DNA of 64,000 nt, taken from the IMG/VR virus record IMGVR_UViG_3300032753_000003, positions 1-64,000 of that record; one strand, 5' to 3'. Shown here in pieces: positions 2,135 through 46,604 of this stretch. The stretch comes from a virus. Each line of letters opens with the position of its first letter. Position 1 is the stretch's first letter. The notes beneath the pieces are model-generated. The model searched no databases and was not told the origin of the DNA. It saw nothing but the letters and a program-made list of their open reading frames with translations. A program made the translations under genes and the position numbers.

Positions 2135-3382
2135 CTAGAAACTAAACAAGCTATCAAAGCTGCTGTCATTCTTGCTGGCTTTGAGATCCCACTTGAGAAC
2201 GCCTAATAGGTTGTCTATCTTTTTGTCAATCAAAGCTTCTTCCATTGCATCATGATCAAATGGCAGGTCCTTAAACCAATGAGGTAGTGTAAGCTGATCT
2301 ACAGGATATGCTACACTGGTAATACCAGACGGATTTGGTTTAAGTTTACAAACAATAACCTTAGCACCGTCGCTGATTTCCATGCTGTAATGATCGTTAT
2401 AGATCTTCTTGAGTTTGTTCCAATTTAAGCTGGCTAACACGTGACCCGGTAACATGGTCTTTTTGGTAACAATGTTACTGATAGTTGTACTCTCCATCTG
2501 TTTCTGTAAGTGACTGTAATGCGTCATTTTGTTAGCACGCTTTGGAGATCCTTTTAGCCATGGATCCCAACTTCTAAACTGTTGACGGAAGTCAGCTATC
2601 TGTTGTATAGCTTCAGATTCTGTAGCACCCGTTAGCACCTTAACAAGTACATCACTCAAGAAGTCTTGCACCGATTTAGGAGTGTCCGATCGCTTGAGAT
2701 CCAATCCCATAGCTTTGATCTCACCCGGCTTACCATTTTGATCCTTGCGCTTGCCTTCCTTGTCAAATATAAGAACTGCATATCTCTTCTTGGTGATGAA
2801 CAATCCTTTTAGAGCGCACAGTTCTCTAGCTGCTTTGATGATAGCACCATTTTCTGGCGGACATCCAAACGCACGACCCATGAAGTCTGAGAAGCTAGCA
2901 TTGGTTAAGTCTGCTATCTTGTCATAGAGGTCAATTACGTTTTCTTTAGACCATTCATAGTCTTTGAAGTCTTCTTGATCCTTCATTACAGGGTATGCGG
3001 AGAAATATTGACTGTCTGTATCGGAATAAATGCATGCATCGCCAACATGGTCGTATTTTCCTGTAATAATTTCATTAATTTTAGATCCCATATGCTTAAC
3101 AATGCAACGACCACTCAGAGTGGTGCTCTGCGCAATACGTTGGTCAAACCATCTACTTCCGGGGTTAGCAATGCTCCCGTAAAGCGAATTTAATTTGATT
3201 TTTTCAATAAGTTGCCTTTGATCATAAAAGTCTCGTTGATATGTATAATATTTTTTGTTATTTGGAACTATTTTTCCGTTTTCTAATTTCAGATCAAACT
3301 CTTCCATATAAGCTTTTAACCCTACATAATCTTCTTTATTTAAAAAATCTTTTATAATTTCAATATCGTATTCTTTATCCAT
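2135..3382 (-). CDS. 43: DNA polymerase family B, C-terminal half (gp43B)
   Basis: 415 residues holding the palm motif B (KIKLNSLYGSIANP), motif C with the catalytic aspartates (YSDTDSQYF), the KKRYA motif and the thumb. It ends SFDSLFSF, close to the clamp-binding tail of T4 gp43. It lacks the exonuclease domain and motif A, which are on the separate N-half at 4323-5990, so the active enzyme must form from two polypeptides. It has its own ATG and Shine-Dalgarno (AGGA, about 10 bases upstream). The first 45 residues and their AT-rich DNA look unlike the rest and may derive from the insertion. It ends in TAG, which is clearly a true stop here because the clamp peptide is complete. Confidence 0.93.
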   Translation of the reverse strand: MDKEYDIEIIKDFLNKEDYVGLKAYMEEFDLKLENGKIVPNNKKYYTYQRDFYDQRQLIEKIKLNSLYGSIANPGSRWFDQRIAQSTTLSGRCIVKHMGSKINEIITGKYDHVGDACIYSDTDSQYFSAYPVMKDQEDFKDYEWSKENVIDLYDKIADLTNASFSDFMGRAFGCPPENGAIIKAARELCALKGLFITKKRYAVLIFDKEGKRKDQNGKPGEIKAMGLDLKRSDTPKSVQDFLSDVLVKVLTGATESEAIQQIADFRQQFRSWDPWLKGSPKRANKMTHYSHLQKQMESTTISNIVTKKTMLPGHVLASLNWNKLKKIYNDHYSMEISDGAKVIVCKLKPNPSGITSVAYPVDQLTLPHWFKDLPFDHDAMEEALIDKKIDNLLGVLKWDLKASKNDSSFDSLFSF

Positions 3383-3425
3383 GTTAAATATTCCTATACA
3401 GCATTACGTAACTTAGGAGTGAGCA

Positions 3426-4336
3426 ATGAATGATATGGTAAAATGCGAAATTTGTCAAAATTTATTTAGGAGAATAACTCGAACACATTTAAACAAGCAT
3501 AACATAACCACAGCTGAATACATCCTCTTATACCCTAATAGTAACTTGATATGCGAAAGTTTACTATACGAAACTGGAAAATATTTTAGAGAAAATAATC
3601 CAATGAAGGTTGAAGAGTTAAAAGAAAAAGTTGCGTCAGTTCATAGAGGGAAACCAAAATCTGAAGAACATAAACGTAAACTCAGCGATTCTCAGGTGGG
3701 AGAAAAAAGCCATATGTGGGGAAAGAAAAGACCAGAACATTCTGCCCATATGAAAGAAATTATGCCAAATATTATGAGAGAATATTATTCTGATGGAAAA
3801 CCGGGTCATAATAAAGGTAAAAAACTTAATTTAACTAACGAACAACGACAGGAAATGTCTAATAGAAATAAAGGTAAACGTAAATGGCCAAACGGTAATC
3901 CAAACAAAGGTAAAAAGTTAAATCTAAGTGATGAACAAAGAAGAAATAGATCTATTAAAAGTTCTAACTGGCTAAAATCTAATAAAATGAAAAATCTTAT
4001 ACAAACATAGAAATTTTATTTAAATCTTGGTGCGAATCACAAAATTTAATATATGAACATCAGTATATTCTTAATACTCCAAAGAACGCATGGGTTTATG
4101 ATTTTTATATACCTTCATTGAATATGTTAGTTGAACTAGATGGAGAATTTTGGCATTCTAAGAAAAAACAGATAAATAGAGATATTTTAAAAACAAATGC
4201 AGCGTATGATCAAAAATTCTTATTTTGTAGACTTTCATCAGATGATTTAAATTTTAACATGATTTATAAATCATCTGAAGAATTAAAACTACATAATCAT
4301 AATATAATAAACAATAGGTTATCTAAACATTTGTAA
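3426..4336 (+). pseudogene. Vsr-like (EDxHD-type) homing endonuclease with a single frameshift
   Basis: Sits between the two DNA polymerase halves on the opposite strand. The first frame (3426-4010) has a zinc-finger-like N-terminus (CEICQNLF...HLNKH), then NUMOD3-type DNA-binding repeats (GKPKSEEHKRKLSDSQ, NKGKKLNLS). The nuclease domain is in the -1 frame: KSYTNIEILFKSWC, WVYDFYIPS, LVELDGEFWH. The two frames join at a run of five A at 3990-3994; six A would restore one reading frame of about 300 codons. It therefore looks like a recently inactivated gene, a -1 slippage site or a sequencing error. A good Shine-Dalgarno (AGGAGTGA) precedes the start. The 3' end overlaps the polymerase N-half by 14 bases. 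Confidence 0.82.
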
Positions 4337-5990
4337 GTTTGTCAATTTGTTCTTGTGTTAACGTAACTCCGTCTGCTAATGCAGCATATTTTCTCATTGT
4401 TTTTTGCATCTCCTTGCGTTCAGCATACCACCGAGACAACACGCTGGGGATCAATCCAGGTTTGCTATAGTCAAATATAGTACCATTAGCACTTAGCGTT
4501 AATTTCTTACCGCTCTTGAAGATGAGATCATATACTTCCTTAGCTGTTACTACCGCTTCTGAACCGTCTTCAAAGTCAATCTTGAGAGGAGTGTTATTCT
4601 TCTCCATAACAGCTTGATATTCTAAGCTACCAAACACACTATTCCATGCATCTGCAAAGCTTTTCTTTTCTTGCTGTACTTTGATCTTGATAAATTGGTC
4701 AGTCATATCTGGACGAATCTGTCCCACAATGGTTTCTGCACTCATGTTGAGCGCACGAATGGTGCTGGGATATAGACTGTTGATGTCAACACCGCCAATC
4801 CAATCGTGCATACCAGGTTTTGGATCTGCAACATATGCACCAACCACTGAGCCGCCCATTTCAGTTTCTTCTGCCCAACGAGCTTCCTTCTCTTCTTCAG
4901 TTTCTCGTATTCTGGTTGGTACCATTAGACCTAGATCATGTGCAGCATTTACAATTGCTTGATCAATTAGTGCAACAGCGCCCATAGTAGTCTGCAACAG
5001 AACACAATTGGTATGTGCGATGTTATTGGCTAGATCAATGAACTTTAGTTTGGCATCGATCTTTACCAACAGCAAAACGTCCTGTCGGTTATATTCTATG
5101 AACTTCTTAAAATCGCTGTTATACAGTTGATCTAGAGTGCCTTCATACTGCGTCTTCTTCTCCTTAACCTCATACTCGCCCACGAAGTCAAGTCTATAAC
5201 TATGCATCTCGTGGTAGGTATGCTTGCGATACAATTGCAAATAATCCAAGTGTACACGTCCAACTAGATCATATGTTACAGTCTCGCGACCATATGATTC
5301 ATATTCACGCTTCTTAGGATATTTGCCCCAAAGGCATAGCTTGCGAGTTTCGTCCTTGCCTAGCACCTCTACAATACGATTGTGAATGTAGGGAATATCA
5401 AAGCCCTCTGAGTTCCAACCTGACAATATGTCGCAGTCTTCAATCAATTCTAGAAACACGCTTAGCAACTGCTTTTCGTTATCGCAAAGGACTGTGTCCT
5501 CAAATTCATCAACAATGGCCTGTGCTGCGGCTTGACTCATAGCTTTTGGCTTAAGCACAAGCGTAAAATTACGCTCTAGCCAATTTAAGTACACGCTAAT
5601 TGCTGTTATAGGTGAGAATGCGTCATCGGGGCTGCTAAAACCTCTAGCCGGATCAAAATCCGTTTCAATATCGAAGAACCCTATGTGCAAATTGGGGCTT
5701 GGTTGATCTTTATAGTGATCATACAAGCATCTGAAGATAGGATTGATATCTGTTTCGTGTAGCTTACTCTTGGGTATGAGCCCAAGTTCGCGCTGGAACT
5801 CTTTAATCTTTGTAGTTTGAAATTTTTCTAGCTTAATTCCAAATATACTTGTAGCTTTGCCCTTTTCGCTGGGCCAATATGCTACGTATTTTGTTGGGTG
5901 TGTAACAAGTAATCTTTTACCGTTTTTATCTCGTTCAGCAACAAGAATAAGATTCTTCTCGCGTTCACAAATTGCATCCACATAACTCAT
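4323..5990 (-). CDS. 43: DNA polymerase family B, N-terminal half (gp43A)
   Basis: 555 residues with the N-terminal domain, the 3'-5' exonuclease (Exo I FFDIETDF, Exo II GWNSEGFDIPYI, Exo III YNRQDVLLL) and palm motif A (DINSLYPSTIRALNMS). It stops at LTQEQIDKLTNV in the fingers, before motif B, which is on the separate gene at 2135-3382. The break therefore lies between motifs A and B. T4-like Aeromonas phage 25 is known to have a gp43 split by a homing gene in a comparable way. No intein blocks are visible at either break, so the halves probably associate non-covalently. The start is the ATG after AAAAGGTAGTAAA. Confidence 0.95.
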   Translation of the reverse strand: MSYVDAICEREKNLILVAERDKNGKRLLVTHPTKYVAYWPSEKGKATSIFGIKLEKFQTTKIKEFQRELGLIPKSKLHETDINPIFRCLYDHYKDQPSPNLHIGFFDIETDFDPARGFSSPDDAFSPITAISVYLNWLERNFTLVLKPKAMSQAAAQAIVDEFEDTVLCDNEKQLLSVFLELIEDCDILSGWNSEGFDIPYIHNRIVEVLGKDETRKLCLWGKYPKKREYESYGRETVTYDLVGRVHLDYLQLYRKHTYHEMHSYRLDFVGEYEVKEKKTQYEGTLDQLYNSDFKKFIEYNRQDVLLLVKIDAKLKFIDLANNIAHTNCVLLQTTMGAVALIDQAIVNAAHDLGLMVPTRIRETEEEKEARWAEETEMGGSVVGAYVADPKPGMHDWIGGVDINSLYPSTIRALNMSAETIVGQIRPDMTDQFIKIKVQQEKKSFADAWNSVFGSLEYQAVMEKNNTPLKIDFEDGSEAVVTAKEVYDLIFKSGKKLTLSANGTIFDYSKPGLIPSVLSRWYAERKEMQKTMRKYAALADGVTLTQEQIDKLTNV

Positions 5991-9718: not shown

Positions 9719-9810
9719 AGAATTACCTCTGTAGTATATGTTATTTACTCCGCAATGCTGTGATATTTTGAAGGTTAAATACTGTGTTATCAAACCATAA
9801 GGATATTAAT

Positions 9811-10623
9811 ATGATCAAGAAGTTGTTATTGTTATCGTTGTTTGCATTATTGCCTACACTGGCAATAGCTTGGGATCAAAAACCATTACTGCCGCTTAAT
9901 GCATGTTCTGCACAGATACCATATGGAATACCAGTATCCTCTAATCAAAATATGCCTGTTATTTGTAGATCTGCATATATTTTACAATATAATCAGTTAG
10001 CTAAACTCCCTATATGGGTATCGTATACATTAACACCTGAACACGCTATAGGTTGCTTGCCTAGGAGTAATGCGTTTGAAACTGACAGAAGTATTCAAAA
10101 TAGTGCCACTCCACAAGATTTTGATGCAAGCGGATATGATAAAGGACATATTGCTCCGGATGGCGATATGAGTTGGAATTCACAAGTTGAGCTAGAGAGT
10201 TTTTTGATGACTAATATGACAGCTCAACTTCCAGGCCTAAATAGAGCAACTTGGAAATTGCTAGAAACATCTATTAGAGATTGGGCATTTCAACTTAACC
10301 AGCCATTTACCATATATGCAGGGCCAATATACAACAATACAGATAAAACTATCGGAAATGGGGTTGTCGTACCACATGCATTTTATAAGATAGTAATTAA
10401 TGATATTACCGGAGAAGTAGCAGGATGGATTTTTCCTCAAGCTAATAATTTGGGAACCGATCTAACTAGATTTAGAGTTTCTGTAGTTCAAATAGAGCAG
10501 GCAGTTGGCATTAAATTTCAATTTCCAAACAATGCAAGAGAATTAAACCAAAACCAAATGTGGCCTATTGATTTTGGAAAAATGACAGAAGCTAAACGTC
10601 AAATTTGTCATATTAATCAATAA
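9811..10623 (+). CDS. Exported DNA/RNA non-specific endonuclease (beta-beta-alpha-Me)
   Basis: 270 residues. The start at 9811 follows AAGGAT and gives a clear signal peptide (MIKKLLLLSLFALLPTLAIA, cleavage near AIA/WD). The mature part has the catalytic motif GYDKGHIAPDGDMSW, a DRGH variant with the general-base His, and the metal-binding Asn region MTNMTAQLPGLNRATWK, as in Serratia nuclease and NUC1. It would act in the periplasm or outside the cell, where it could scavenge nucleotides from host or foreign DNA or hinder competitors; this role is inference. It is transcribed opposite to its neighbours and its 3' end overlaps the GIY-YIG gene by 11 bases, suggesting both came as a module. Confidence 0.9.
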   Translation: MIKKLLLLSLFALLPTLAIAWDQKPLLPLNACSAQIPYGIPVSSNQNMPVICRSAYILQYNQLAKLPIWVSYTLTPEHAIGCLPRSNAFETDRSIQNSATPQDFDASGYDKGHIAPDGDMSWNSQVELESFLMTNMTAQLPGLNRATWKLLETSIRDWAFQLNQPFTIYAGPIYNNTDKTIGNGVVVPHAFYKIVINDITGEVAGWIFPQANNLGTDLTRFRVSVVQIEQAVGIKFQFPNNARELNQNQMWPIDFGKMTEAKRQICHINQ

Positions 10624-11404
10624 TCTTCTTATGCTTACATTTATCAAAATGCCAACGTTTTGAATTACTAGAATCACTAACATTTCCGCAATGCGGACAT
10701 GTTAGTTTTTCTCTTGCTTTCTTATGTGGGCCAGTTTTAACTCTCATTTTTGCCAAAGACTCTTCAGTATGTTTTTTACCTAGCATGGTACCGGGTTTGC
10801 CGTATCTATGATTATTTTCTCCTATAGATGCAGCCGATTGTTTGGCTCTAATTTCTTTTGATCGCTCGTTACCGTATATTTCATCAAATGTTAATCCTAG
10901 ACGTTCTTCTTTGTGAGGAAATCGTCGTTGTTTTTTTGGATTTTTATTTTTCCATTTTTCTCGCATTGTATTTTTAAATTTTGATATCTTTTGTTTTGCT
11001 TTTTCTTCACCATATAATTCTTTGTAAGTTTTACCTTTATTAATAGATTTTTGACCTTTATATCTTGCGCTTGCTGCTCGTCTTTCTTCGTCTGTTACAA
11101 CTCGCCCAGCGCCTCCGTCTCCGCCTTTTGTCTGGTTATAGCCTTGTTCATAGCTATTATATAATTCTATATAAAATGGTTCCATTATATTTTTGCAGTA
11201 ATCTTTATCTGTAGATTCAAATATAATTTCTGTTGTAAATTTATCCCATCCATATTTTCTTATTGCTGCTTTAAGTCCTCTTAATTTAGTATTTGCTGGC
11301 AACTTTCTATGTTCTGAAATTCTTCGAAAATAATTTCCAGTAAATCCAATATATATTTTATTATTAACTGTATTTGTTATTTTATAAATGTAATATATTT
11401 TCAT
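10613..11404 (-). CDS. GIY-YIG homing endonuclease
   Basis: 263 residues: the GIY-YIG nuclease domain (YYIYKITNTVNNKIYIGFT, catalytic Arg in RRISEHR, Glu in the MEPFYIELYN region), then linker repeats and a NUMOD3-type DNA-binding segment (YGKPGTMLGKKHTEES), and a C-terminal zinc finger (CPHCGN...HFDKCKH). It is a free-standing intron-type nuclease like T4 Seg and I-TevI proteins that spreads itself between genomes. Expression seems restricted to late infection by a hairpin over its ribosome-binding site that contains a late promoter (11402-11438). Confidence 0.93.
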   Translation of the reverse strand: MKIYYIYKITNTVNNKIYIGFTGNYFRRISEHRKLPANTKLRGLKAAIRKYGWDKFTTEIIFESTDKDYCKNIMEPFYIELYNSYEQGYNQTKGGDGGAGRVVTDEERRAASARYKGQKSINKGKTYKELYGEEKAKQKISKFKNTMREKWKNKNPKKQRRFPHKEERLGLTFDEIYGNERSKEIRAKQSAASIGENNHRYGKPGTMLGKKHTEESLAKMRVKTGPHKKAREKLTCPHCGNVSDSSNSKRWHFDKCKHKKIID

Positions 11405-32382: not shown

Positions 32383-32415
32383 CCCACATTGTTAATATAT
32401 ACGGAGGAAATAATT

Positions 32416-33246
32416 ATGTCAATGATATTGTGTGCATATGGGTGTGGAAATGTTGCAATATATTTCAATCGGCAACAAGTAGGTAGATGTTCATTTAGGC
32501 CTAGCGTTTGTGAAGGTATACGCGCCCGCGCCAAACAATCTATCAAAAATAGATACGCATCAAAAACTGAAGAAGAGAAACAGTTAATTAAAAATCGCAG
32601 GTTAGCAACAAATATTAAAAAATATGGTGTTGCTAATGTATCTTCAGTTGAATCAGTTAAACTTAAAAAAGAACAAACTTTTTTAGACAAGTTTGGTACT
32701 ACTAACCCGTCCCAAAACACAGATATACGCGCAAAAATTAAAGATAAGATGCCTGTAGTTCTTAAGAAACGTAAAAAAACTAATTTAGATAGATATGGAG
32801 TTGAGCACTACTCTAGTACAGAGGAATTTAAATCTAGACGTAAAATAACCTGGACCAAAAGATACGGAGCAGATAATCCAAGTAAAAATAATAATATCAA
32901 AGACAAAATTATGAAAGGACAGGATCATAGAAGAACTAACAAGATAATTATTTTAAATGGACAAATTGTTAGAGTACAAGGTTATGAAGATCAAGTTATA
33001 CGAGATTTAATAAAATCTGGAATTTCAGAATCTGAGATAATATGTGATAGGGATAGGATACCAAAGATATCATATACCATAGATAATAAAGTTAGAACCT
33101 ATTACCCTGATATATATCTTCCTAGATATAACATTTTGATAGAAGTTAAATCGTTATACACTTGGAAGAAATATAAGGCTATTAATATTGCTAAAATTAG
33201 TTCTGCTAAACATGCAGGATATAATGTACGTGTGGCTATACGTTAG
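32416..33246 (+). CDS. PD-(D/E)XK-type homing endonuclease
   Basis: 276 residues; start at 32416 after GGAGGA. N-terminal Cys-containing segment (LCAYGCGN...GRCSF), then three or four repeated DNA-binding motifs of the type KKYGVANVSS, KFGTTNPSQN, RYGVEHYSS and RYGADNPSK, and a C-terminal PD-(D/E)XK nuclease (YYPDIYLPRYNILIEVKS). The KYGxxNPSQ repeats also occur in the ligase-intein endonuclease at 34189. It is encoded opposite to, and overlaps by four bases, the 3' end of the ligase C-part, so it seems to be inserted next to its presumed target. Confidence 0.85.
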   Translation: MSMILCAYGCGNVAIYFNRQQVGRCSFRPSVCEGIRARAKQSIKNRYASKTEEEKQLIKNRRLATNIKKYGVANVSSVESVKLKKEQTFLDKFGTTNPSQNTDIRAKIKDKMPVVLKKRKKTNLDRYGVEHYSSTEEFKSRRKITWTKRYGADNPSKNNNIKDKIMKGQDHRRTNKIIILNGQIVRVQGYEDQVIRDLIKSGISESEIICDRDRIPKISYTIDNKVRTYYPDIYLPRYNILIEVKSLYTWKKYKAINIAKISSAKHAGYNVRVAIR

Positions 33247-34187
33247 ATCTTTTGTCCCGGGTCAAATCCTCTAAATGCAACAAATACAGGAAACCTCAAA
33301 CTATACGTATCAGAGTTCTGATTCTGTGTGAGACAGTCTCCCTTAATTTCAACAATTTGGCCAATTACCTGATCTTGGTTGTTCCAGATCTGATCACGCA
33401 GCTCTTCAGTATAACCGCCACCTACAGTAACTTCAATGATCTTACCTTGATCTTCTCCTCGGCAGATTAGACCACCTAATGTATTTTTGAACTTACTCTC
33501 TGGTTTGCCAGGTTCAACTCCGATAACTTCTAAATCTACAGAATATACCGGTTTAATTTTCAACCAGGCATCTGTACGTTTAGTCTTATATGTGGCATTA
33601 GGGTCCTTGATCATAATTCCTTCTAGTCCTTGGCTTAACGTGTCGTTGTTGAATTCCTTGAACTGCTTCTGACCCTCAGGAGTCTCTAGATCCACAGCCA
33701 TCTTGGGAATAACATACACGCGCTCGCCACAATGCTCTGCCAGCAGCGGCACAAATCCAGTCAACACTTCATGCCGCTGAGTCTGAGTCAGCAGGCATTC
33801 ACCTGCAACAAAGTCCTTGAGCGGGACAATATCAAACAGTGCCAGCTTGGCATCGGAGGTGTCAACATCCTCTTTGCGATTCAGCTGCTTCATCAAAGAT
33901 TGGAAACTGCGGCTGACCATTTCGCCGTCAAACACCACGCTCTGTTTGAGCTTGGGTAGCAGCTTGGCCATTGATGCCGCAATAGTCTCAAAACGATCGT
34001 TCTGCCTACCATCGCGACTGTATTGAGTAACAGTGTTGTTCTCAACATCGAGGATGGTGATCATTCGGCAGTTGTGGACGAGCACATTGTTTGCAAAGAA
34101 ATTACTGACATCATCTACCTCCAGATCGTACCGATCGAGGTTGACATCTAACTCTTCAATCCTGGATATTGCCGCTATGTTTTTCAT
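33243..34187 (-). CDS. 30: DNA ligase C-terminal part with C-intein (split intein)
   Basis: 314 residues. Residues 1-39 are a C-terminal split intein (MKNIAAISRIEEL, RYDLEVDDVSNFFANNVLVHN with the terminal Asn), ending at the splice site HN/C. The C-extein begins CRMITILDV, i.e. directly after ligase motif I, and carries motif III (VVFDGEMVS), IIIa (LALFDIVPL), IV (EGIMIKDPN), V (DAWLKIKP) and the OB-fold region. Start taken at 34187, just behind the endonuclease stop. It needs the N-part at 35135-35968 to form a working ATP-dependent ligase of about 446 residues (T4 gp30: 487). Confidence 0.92.
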   Translation of the reverse strand: MKNIAAISRIEELDVNLDRYDLEVDDVSNFFANNVLVHNCRMITILDVENNTVTQYSRDGRQNDRFETIAASMAKLLPKLKQSVVFDGEMVSRSFQSLMKQLNRKEDVDTSDAKLALFDIVPLKDFVAGECLLTQTQRHEVLTGFVPLLAEHCGERVYVIPKMAVDLETPEGQKQFKEFNNDTLSQGLEGIMIKDPNATYKTKRTDAWLKIKPVYSVDLEVIGVEPGKPESKFKNTLGGLICRGEDQGKIIEVTVGGGYTEELRDQIWNNQDQVIGQIVEIKGDCLTQNQNSDTYSLRFPVFVAFRGFDPGQKI

Positions 34188-34188
34188 G

Positions 34189-35070
34189 TTACTCTGTCTT
34201 TCTGGTAAAGGTATTATATAACATCTTGGTGATGTCGTCAAACGATTTCTTTATATCATTCTCCCATAACACAATTACCTTTACACCAAATGATTCTATA
34301 TGAGATTGTCGATGACTATCAATGTCCCATATTTCTTGGGCGGTAGTTAGGCCAATGAACAGATGTATCACATCGCTAGCATAATATATGTTAGGGTTTG
34401 CGTGCCAATAATCCCCGTATATTTCAATCACTGTATTGTAAGCGTCTATCCAAATATCAACTATAGGCGAATATATGCGATTGTTAGCCGCAACAGGTTT
34501 AGGAAATAGGTTAGGCTTCTCGTTTTCATGTTCGATACCAACCGAGGTCAACCAGTTTGATATCTTTCTATGAGGTACAGACAGAGTTGTGTTGCCGCGA
34601 TACCTCGGAAGATATCTGGCATTGGTCACACCATAATTTATAAACATAGTGTCTTTAATTTTAGAAATAATTTCGGGTCTCTGGGATGGGTTATCGACAC
34701 CATATCGTTCTCGGCTGACCGATAGCTTTCTATCTTTAACATGTTGCGACTGCGATACATTGTCCACACCATACGTGTTTCTCACTGTTTCTTTATATTT
34801 CTGCCTTGTTTCCGGGGATCTTGCAGCATCCTTTATCGATAAAGTCTTTACGCCTCTGATTCTACACCAATCACGTAACCAGTCGCCGCTGATTTTCTGA
34901 CCAGCCCATTGTATGCTAGTTGTCTGCAAGCCATAAATGCTTCGACGCTCTATCATCAACCATTGTATCAGTTCTTTTTCAAATGGTTCCAGCTTTTTTT
35001 GGGCTTTCATAGTCCTGCATTCATGTGTGACACTGATGTTTGATTTCCGACAATAGATGCATTCTGTCAT
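34189..35070 (-). CDS. Vsr-like homing endonuclease between the ligase intein halves
   Basis: 293 residues from ATG 35070 (AGAGG upstream). A TTG start at 35163 inside the N-part is possible but less likely. N-terminal zinc finger (CIYCRKSNISVTHEC), repeats NTYGVDNVSQS, RYGVDNPSQR and NYGVTNARYL, then the nuclease core YSPIVDIWIDAYNTVIEIYGDYWHANP with the EDxHD-like IEIYGDYWH. Vsr-like enzymes in this position are known from fractured genes with split inteins in environmental phages. It lies between the N- and C-intein genes on the same strand, so all three are probably one transcript. Confidence 0.88.
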   Translation of the reverse strand: MTECIYCRKSNISVTHECRTMKAQKKLEPFEKELIQWLMIERRSIYGLQTTSIQWAGQKISGDWLRDWCRIRGVKTLSIKDAARSPETRQKYKETVRNTYGVDNVSQSQHVKDRKLSVSRERYGVDNPSQRPEIISKIKDTMFINYGVTNARYLPRYRGNTTLSVPHRKISNWLTSVGIEHENEKPNLFPKPVAANNRIYSPIVDIWIDAYNTVIEIYGDYWHANPNIYYASDVIHLFIGLTTAQEIWDIDSHRQSHIESFGVKVIVLWENDIKKSFDDITKMLYNTFTRKTE

Positions 35071-35134
35071 TGGCAACCTCTTGTAATTGACAAGAGTATT
35101 TATGCTAGATTCGAAACTAGACGGCGTATATCCA

Positions 35135-35968
35135 TCATGTATCTTGCAACAGTTTATCGCCAATCATCAATAAATCAACTCGTCTCCAACATTTTAATAG
35201 GGGTAACCAAACCAGATGATTTCCAGTCAAAGGTGGCAGCATATTCCCATTTTCAAGCGTTATTCTGTACCATTTAACCGATGTGTCGTTGATATCAGAA
35301 CCGTTCTTTGCCCAATTAAGTATCTTATTGTATTCTATTTTGCCGGTAGATGGATTAAATGATTTGATCCTACCTTCTATGCGGTTTTCAACTACTTCAG
35401 CGATAGTCACACGTCGACCGTCTTCAAACTCAATGGTCCAGCTTGCTGATAAACAGCCGTCCAGCTTGGGATCCAGCAGTTTGATACCAGACAACTTCTT
35501 GGGATGGTCCTCACCATTCTTGGCCAACTGGCAGCTGAATACAGGGATAATGTAATCAACCGCGCCAACCTTCTCGAGAATCTTGTTGATGGTTGCTTCA
35601 GTGACACCGCACTTGAGATCCTTGAGTAGAATTCTACGATACCAACTGTTCCAATCCTTGACTGAACTTGCGTCAGCAGCAGCACGCAGCACATCGCGGG
35701 CACTGTTACCAGTAAGCTCGCGATGCTGTAGCTTGTGAGCAATGTCCTTGAACTTGGTCCAATTCATAGTGGATTTGAAGTTGGGATCGTCAGCGCCTTC
35801 GATCAGCGGAACCTTCTTGACTCCAAATGTAACGAGAGCATCATAGGCCATCTTGGCGCCTTCAAAGAACTCTGTACAGCCTGCATCCCAGGCGGCACGG
35901 ATAATACTCTCCTTGTCCAAACGGCCGCTGGTAGATTCAAGTTTGGCAATGATGTCTGCGGGGGTCAT
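35135..35968 (-). CDS. 30: DNA ligase N-terminal part with N-intein (split intein)
   Basis: 277 residues. Residues 1-171 are the N-terminal domain of a T4-type ligase ending in the active-site motif I LLDPKLDG (catalytic Lys168). From Cys172 on, an N-intein of 106 residues follows: CLSASWTIEFEDGRR (block A) and LTGNHLVWLPLLKCW (block B-like with the conserved His). The extein break is therefore directly after KLDG, the most conserved point of the enzyme, as is usual for inteins. The N-part alone lacks catalysis, so trans-splicing is required. Confidence 0.92.
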   Translation of the reverse strand: MTPADIIAKLESTSGRLDKESIIRAAWDAGCTEFFEGAKMAYDALVTFGVKKVPLIEGADDPNFKSTMNWTKFKDIAHKLQHRELTGNSARDVLRAAADASSVKDWNSWYRRILLKDLKCGVTEATINKILEKVGAVDYIIPVFSCQLAKNGEDHPKKLSGIKLLDPKLDGCLSASWTIEFEDGRRVTIAEVVENRIEGRIKSFNPSTGKIEYNKILNWAKNGSDINDTSVKWYRITLENGNMLPPLTGNHLVWLPLLKCWRRVDLLMIGDKLLQDT

Positions 35969-46528: not shown

Positions 46529-46604
46529 GCGCCGTTGGGCCAGATGGATGGCCGGTCAACTCTAAATCGACACAAGGTAGGTTCGATACCTACACGGCGC
46601 ACCA
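46529..46604 (+). tRNA. tRNA with CUA anticodon (amber suppressor), CCA encoded
   Basis: Full cloverleaf. Acceptor GCGCCGT/ACGGCGC, 7 of 7 pairs. D stem GGCC/GGCC with loop AGATGGAT. Anticodon stem GTCAA/TCGAC with one A-C mismatch, loop CTCTAAA (46560-46566). T stem GTAGG/CCTAC with loop TTCGATA. Discriminator A, then CCA. With U33 at 46561 the anticodon is CTA (46562-46564), which reads UAG. Class I, five-base variable loop. Charging identity cannot be fixed by eye: A20 recalls arginine tRNAs but C35 is missing. Three genes in the window carry in-frame UAG codons. Confidence 0.9.

Follow-up and report, generated by a model that had tools for sequence, protein, structure and literature searches.

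How can a replicative DNA polymerase work when its gene is cut in two and a homing endonuclease gene lies, on the other strand, between the pieces? The locus that raises this question occupies positions 2135–5990 of the window analyzed here, which comprises the first 64 kb of the 199,865-bp virus record IMGVR_UViG_3300032753_000003. Analysis of the record revealed one family B DNA polymerase (PolB), encoded as two adjacent minus-strand cistrons, and no further PolB or any PolA was found in its ~200 kb. We consider it likely that this pair is a bipartite replicative polymerase resembling 43A/43B, fractured at the tip of the fingers by a homing cassette that was received by recombination.

The N-half (4323..5990, minus strand; 555 amino acids, ATG to TAG) contained the exonuclease, the palm with motif A (DINSLYPS), the first fingers helix, and the N-terminal part of a fingers-tip module. 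The C-half (2135..3382, minus strand; 415 amino acids, ATG to TAG) contained the C-terminal part of this module, the second fingers helix, motif B (KIKLNSLYG), motif C (YSDTDS), and the thumb. Pfam divided the enzyme in the same way, with the exonuclease domain and positions 11–150 of DNA_pol_B matching the N-half and DNA_pol_B from position 145 onward matching the C-half; in PHROGs, the full-length polymerase is family 262 and the half-length families 2062 and 1918 match the two pieces. A stop, a ribosome site, and a start were all present at the break. Both halves were open and shared 83–84% amino-acid identity (83% for the N-half) with those of the relative L008, with synonymous sites saturated. 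These results bear out an earlier note on this DNA, which had described, from the letters alone, a polymerase gene split between motifs A and B into halves with their own starts and stops that together hold all exonuclease and polymerase motifs. Two adjacent cistrons, one with the exonuclease and motif A and the other with motifs B and C, separated by a break at the fingers tip, are also what characterizes a gp43A/gp43B-type polymerase. That the enzyme must assemble from two chains, as the same note held, is probable by analogy with the parallel Aeromonas gp43A/gp43B, for which assembly has been shown (PMC2988022).

Comparison with unsplit homologues, which the earlier note had proposed for mapping the break, placed it inside a module of about 70–87 residues between the two long fingers helices. 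In the window, the N-terminal part of the module forms the tail of the N-half (4326..4391, minus strand; ~22 codons with a guanine–cytosine (GC) content of 33%, delimited by alignment and composition), and its C-terminal part forms the first 51 codons of the C-half (3230..3382, minus strand), for which helices at residues 7–15 and 19–28 and a hairpin at 31–40 are predicted. The module occurs unsplit in Sinorhizobium phage Phosso, Salmonella phage Munch, Klebsiella phage K64-1, Serratia phage BF, and Escherichia phage 121Q, as well as in the metagenomic loci L137, L140, L142, L143, L146, and L147; it is missing from L001, L004, L005, L017, L027, L032, and a larger set of unsplit relatives. An AlphaFold2 model of the unsplit L142 polymerase matched RB69 gp43 (Z 37.7, root mean square deviation 3.5, 774 aligned) and placed the module, at low confidence, at 557–620 between helices 527–556 and 621–652. 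In the model of the window C-half, the C-terminal part of the module had a predicted local distance difference test score of ~85 and formed a helix–helix–hairpin followed by the second fingers helix, with the remainder reaching only moderate scores (mean 68).

The first 51 codons of the C-half belong to the polymerase because the module aligns with unsplit polymerases and is predicted to fold. The earlier note had suspected this stretch of being an acquired linker, AT-rich like the endonuclease. The AT-richness is real (GC 23.5% versus 41% in the core), but a linker made of endonuclease sequence was rejected, as the start of the C-half aligns with the module of unsplit jumbo-phage polymerases; the stretch may be called acquired only in the sense that the module, break, and endonuclease form a compositional island and move jointly in relatives. 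Every split polymerase found in the family carries the module and breaks within it, and no split was found among the module-less polymerases of the sample. This pattern suggests that the tip module is what makes the break tolerable.

Another answer would be that the halves end up in a single chain, either because the gap is an intron or because a split intein joins the products. Relatives provide some grounds for this, with group I introns at motif B in L006, L007, and L008 and split inteins at motif C in L008 and L112. In the window, however, an Rfam scan returned no family at threshold, a lax RNA-family scan of 3100–4600 gave a chance match only, and the whole record contained no group I intron, hence none in the C-half. 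An intron in the gap, which the earlier note had named among the findings that would overturn its reading, was thus rejected, no group I or other credible RNA family being present there. The signals at the break (a stop, a ribosome site, and a start) also argue against an intron, and the gaps of 14–18 nucleotides in L006, L136, and Agrobacterium phage Atu_ph07 are too short for one. Pfam detected neither an intein domain nor splicing blocks in either polymerase half, in agreement with the earlier observation that none is visible at the break. An intein there would have been detected, because the same tools found the split intein of the DNA ligase in this window, which served as a positive control; an intein at the break was therefore also rejected. 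A single-chain polymerase is scarcely credible at this locus.

The gene between the halves lies on the plus strand, opposite to the polymerase as originally described, and encodes a zinc knuckle, NUMOD3, and a Vsr-like domain. The description as an opposing homing endonuclease stands, although the earlier note had missed that the gene is frameshifted. Its 5' part (3426..4010, plus strand), with the zinc knuckle and NUMOD3, stops at a TAG before the nuclease domain; the 3' part (3986..4336, plus strand), with the Vsr/EDxHD-like nuclease domain (VELDGEFWH), is in a different frame, and its 3' end overlaps the stop of the N-half. With the Vsr-like domain running on to 4336 in another frame, the reading frame is broken around 3986–4010, and the endonuclease is therefore probably inactive at present, a dead gene. 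In the nuclease domain, 40% of the amino acids were identical to those of the L008 endonuclease, which is intact and likewise opposes the polymerase, and it is through this homologue that the window nuclease, with its Vsr-like domain and NUMOD3/zinc knuckle, was assigned to the Vsr/EDxHD family; the Pfam Vsr score was 11.9 bits in the window, below the 27-bit cut-off, and 27.0 bits in L008, at the cut-off.

The frameshift invites the thought that the entire locus is a decaying pseudogene in which one half or none is functional. This is very unlikely, as the halves are full length, retain all motifs under strong amino-acid constraint relative to L008, and are the only polymerase of either family found in the record. 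Transcription of the C-half probably starts at a sigma70-like promoter of its own within the opposing endonuclease gene: a candidate (TTGACA-17-TATCAT, 11/12) lies at 3430..3458 on the minus strand, within the endonuclease 5' end and directed into the C-half. L008 and L111, which also have opposing endonucleases, showed 10/12 sigma70-like matches upstream of their C-halves, and L008 has a 12/12 match further up.

Base composition sets the module apart from the enzyme that contains it. Its two parts together had a GC content of 26.5% and a third-position GC content (GC3) of 16.4%, versus 41.2% and 40.2% for the polymerase outside the module, and none of 2000 polymerase core segments was as low. 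The value was lowered in all seven measured split loci that bear an endonuclease (z −1.9 to −5.7); that of L138 is approximate and was not relied on. Splits without an endonuclease and unsplit polymerases mostly showed weaker contrast. In the window clade, the module, break, and endonuclease constitute a compositional island.

Comparison of the site across relatives revealed several states. Opposing Vsr-type endonucleases occur in the window, L008, and L111; co-directional endonucleases of the Vsr-type family in L112 and L113; 400-amino-acid HNH-type endonucleases in L007, L009, L135, and L141; and an opposing endonuclease of a different kind in L133. L138 retains a remnant of an HNH-type endonuclease, and L006, L136, and Atu_ph07 keep the split with a gap devoid of any endonuclease. 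L006 still has, upstream of the C-half, ~28 bases that encode the endonuclease end in L007, which matches the expectation from deletion of the nuclease, and L006 would thus have arisen in this direction. Because splits recur with opposing, co-directional, decayed, or no endonuclease, the break outlives the endonuclease, and the window, in which the nuclease is frameshifted, seems to represent an intermediate stage. Some loci have been invaded repeatedly. In L008:1266-6912, the polymerase gene has been entered three times: the fingers tip holds an opposing endonuclease, motif B a group I intron, and motif C a split intein accompanied by an EDxHD-type endonuclease. In L112:2211-7549, from a distant relative, a co-directional Vsr-type endonuclease at the fingers tip is combined with a split intein and endonuclease at motif C.

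Pairwise comparisons revealed that the site moves independently of the surrounding polymerase. Between L008 and L111, both with an opposing endonuclease, identity of the N-half cores was 81% at the protein level and 58% for third codon positions, whereas the corresponding values for the modules were 98% and 97%, and synonymous sites of the N-half tail were identical (synonymous divergence zero). The core of L111 was nearest to that of L005, which is unsplit and module-less (90% amino-acid identity; grouped at 99/98 support). In sliding comparisons of L008 and L111, DNA identity was about 70–85% in most of the N-half, rose to 97–100% at the module start, stayed at 89–100% across the endonuclease, the C-terminal part of the module, and the group I intron, and dropped again some tens of bases past the intron. 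L006 and L007 showed the same pattern, with third-position identity of 47% in the N-half core and 94% in the module, and 99–100% identity across the C-terminal part, the intron, and ~110 bases of exon. On the N-half core tree, the split state had to change 9 times, and well-supported branches forced at least 6 of these changes. In these relatives, the module, break, endonuclease, and often a group I intron travel as one cassette, and the same break has spread several times between related phages.

These comparisons also bear on whether the split could instead be an old, vertically inherited feature of the fingers, with endonucleases having come and gone and the module-less unsplit relatives having arisen by repeated deletion and re-fusion. 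The module is also found unsplit in jumbo phages and is therefore probably old in the family, and the splits of Atu_ph07 and L136 lack an endonuclease and show little composition contrast, as such a history would allow. However, it predicts that the module tree equals the core tree, which fails for L111, whose core is sister to that of the unsplit L005 and whose module is nearly that of L008 even at third positions. The sharp identity step at the cassette edges, found in both pairs, and the low GC3 of the module in endonuclease-bearing loci likewise argue against vertical inheritance, which we regard as unlikely.

For the preferred explanation, a bipartite polymerase fractured by a transferred cassette, we propose the following course. 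The cassette would comprise the endonuclease gene with one part of the fingers-tip module on either side, and the endonuclease would spread by cleaving polymerase genes in which the cassette is absent. Repair would copy the nuclease together with flanking polymerase sequence, so that the recipient gains both the break and the tip module. Each half would then be translated separately, and the two chains, held together non-covalently and without splicing by contacts of the palm, fingers, and tip module, would function as a single PolB. The endonuclease would later have decayed by frameshift, with the break persisting. We tentatively raise the further possibility that the tip module serves a function within the mobile element, as a tolerant, self-folding domain that lets the broken polymerase reassemble. 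If so, the module would play the part for a free-standing endonuclease that introns and inteins play for the endonucleases they carry, and would represent a third, splicing-free route by which invasion of an essential gene is made harmless.

Several points weigh against this explanation. Cleavage by the endonuclease, assembly and activity of the two chains, and use of the promoter are all read from sequence. The record is a genome fragment, so another polymerase may lie outside it. The window module was only 24% identical to that of L008, and neither part of the window endonuclease, used as a query, retrieved a close relative; no recent cassette donor was thus found. Because of this low identity, the window cassette would have come from a different or older source. 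Recent transfer of the insert with its flanks was seen in L008/L111 and L006/L007, and in the window the compositional island was the one sign of a transfer; judging from composition and position, its cassette probably arrived likewise. The AT-richness could alternatively reflect relaxed constraint in the tip. Finally, sigma70-like matches of the quality seen here number 10 in the 64 kb versus 2–6 in shuffled sequences, and the promoter match could be a chance occurrence.

Other broken or opposed genes were also observed. The DNA ligase gene (33243-35968, minus strand) is fractured at the KLDG active-site motif by a split intein: its N-part (35135-35968, minus strand) ends with KLDG followed by an N-intein-like stretch, its C-part (33243-34241, minus strand) starts with a C-intein ending in VLVHN before CRM, and an EDxHD-type endonuclease (34189-35163) lies between them. 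The ligase is a Dassa-type fractured gene, so that genes broken with and without an intein occur side by side in this phage. A 285-amino-acid frame with a nuclease-like end (YPDIYLPRYNILIEVKS) at 32389-33246 (plus strand) abuts the ligase C-half on the opposite strand and is possibly another opposing endonuclease. At 10613-11404 (minus strand), a GIY-YIG homing endonuclease with NUMOD3 overlaps the end of an opposing gene (9784-10623) that encodes a DNA/RNA non-specific endonuclease. An IMP dehydrogenase (IMPDH)-like gene at L202:2369-4862 is broken in two by a split intein whose parts enclose an endonuclease, and resembles an IMPDH fractured gene that Dassa and colleagues reportedly described in 2009. 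A stand-alone protein of 173 amino acids (G000:C1:190666-190896; L207:1213-1734) matches part of DNA polymerase III alpha and adjoins a helicase-like gene; a polymerase III alpha-like gene has been reported for Atu_ph07 as well.

A tRNA gene at 46529-46604 (plus strand) has the anticodon CUA and would read amber. TAG is a rare stop, ending 6 of the 66 long open reading frames, and three of these six are the polymerase halves and the endonuclease frame. Amber recoding was nevertheless rejected: treating TAG as sense raised the coding density merely from 0.919 to 0.926, and read-through adds just 8 residues to the C-half and 23 to the N-half.

Among known systems, the closest precedent is the gp43A/gp43B polymerase of Aeromonas phages 25 and 44RR. 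Reviews of the work of Petrov, Ratnayaka and Karam (2010) describe gp43 of both phages as split into 43A and 43B (PMC2988022, PMC2993671), and co-purification of the two with polymerase activity is reported for phage 25 (PMC2988022). According to the same reviews, a seg-type endonuclease lies on the same strand between the halves in phage 25 and none in 44RR, 43B of phage 25 contains a group I intron lacking an endonuclease, and the endonuclease may have invaded a gp43 that was already split (PMC2988022, PMC2993671). Like the window polymerase, gp43 of these phages is a T4-family PolB in two cistrons, and alignment places its break at the same fingers-tip site between motifs A and B; phage 25 resembles L006–L008 in having a group I intron in the C-half, which the window lacks. 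Unlike gp43 of 25 and 44RR, the window polymerase belongs to another clade, its endonuclease is of the Vsr/EDxHD type, opposite in strand, and frameshifted, and its module and endonuclease form a compositional island. Petrov and co-workers reportedly proposed in 2010 that elements of this type come together as a single system by which polB is transferred laterally. The data from the window clade support such a convergent system in a different polymerase clade.

The fractured genes of Dassa et al. (2009) resemble the window polymerase in that an essential phage gene is broken by an EDxHD-type endonuclease, but the polymerase break has no intein, and its chains thus cannot be ligated by protein splicing. 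In the split nrdA of Aeromonas phage Aeh1 with mobE (PMC2988022), insertion of an endonuclease likewise yields two chains that reassemble without splicing, although enzyme and endonuclease both differ from those of the window. The PolB of Pseudomonas phage MIJ3 (PMC6892783) is a related jumbo-phage enzyme with a fingers-tip module and a gene break that carries an endonuclease; its break, however, is at motif C with a split intein, and its fingers tip is unsplit. For Agrobacterium phage Atu_ph07, DNA polymerases gp276 and gp277 have been published in a paper whose main text never uses the word "split" (PMC6102473). Alignment revealed that these two adjacent genes are two halves of one polymerase, of the same family as that of the window and split at the same place, but with an 18-nucleotide gap, no endonuclease, and no clear compositional island.

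Against this background, what seems to be new is that the break recurs together with a tip module and that this module travels with an endonuclease. The split gp43 of two Aeromonas phages is then no curiosity but an instance of a recurrent, transmissible state of phage replicative polymerases. The natural pairs with and without the cassette (L111/L005, L141/L027, and L006 and L007/L017) bear on how an essential enzyme copes with division into two chains, and Atu_ph07, which shares the split and is available in culture, makes this question testable.

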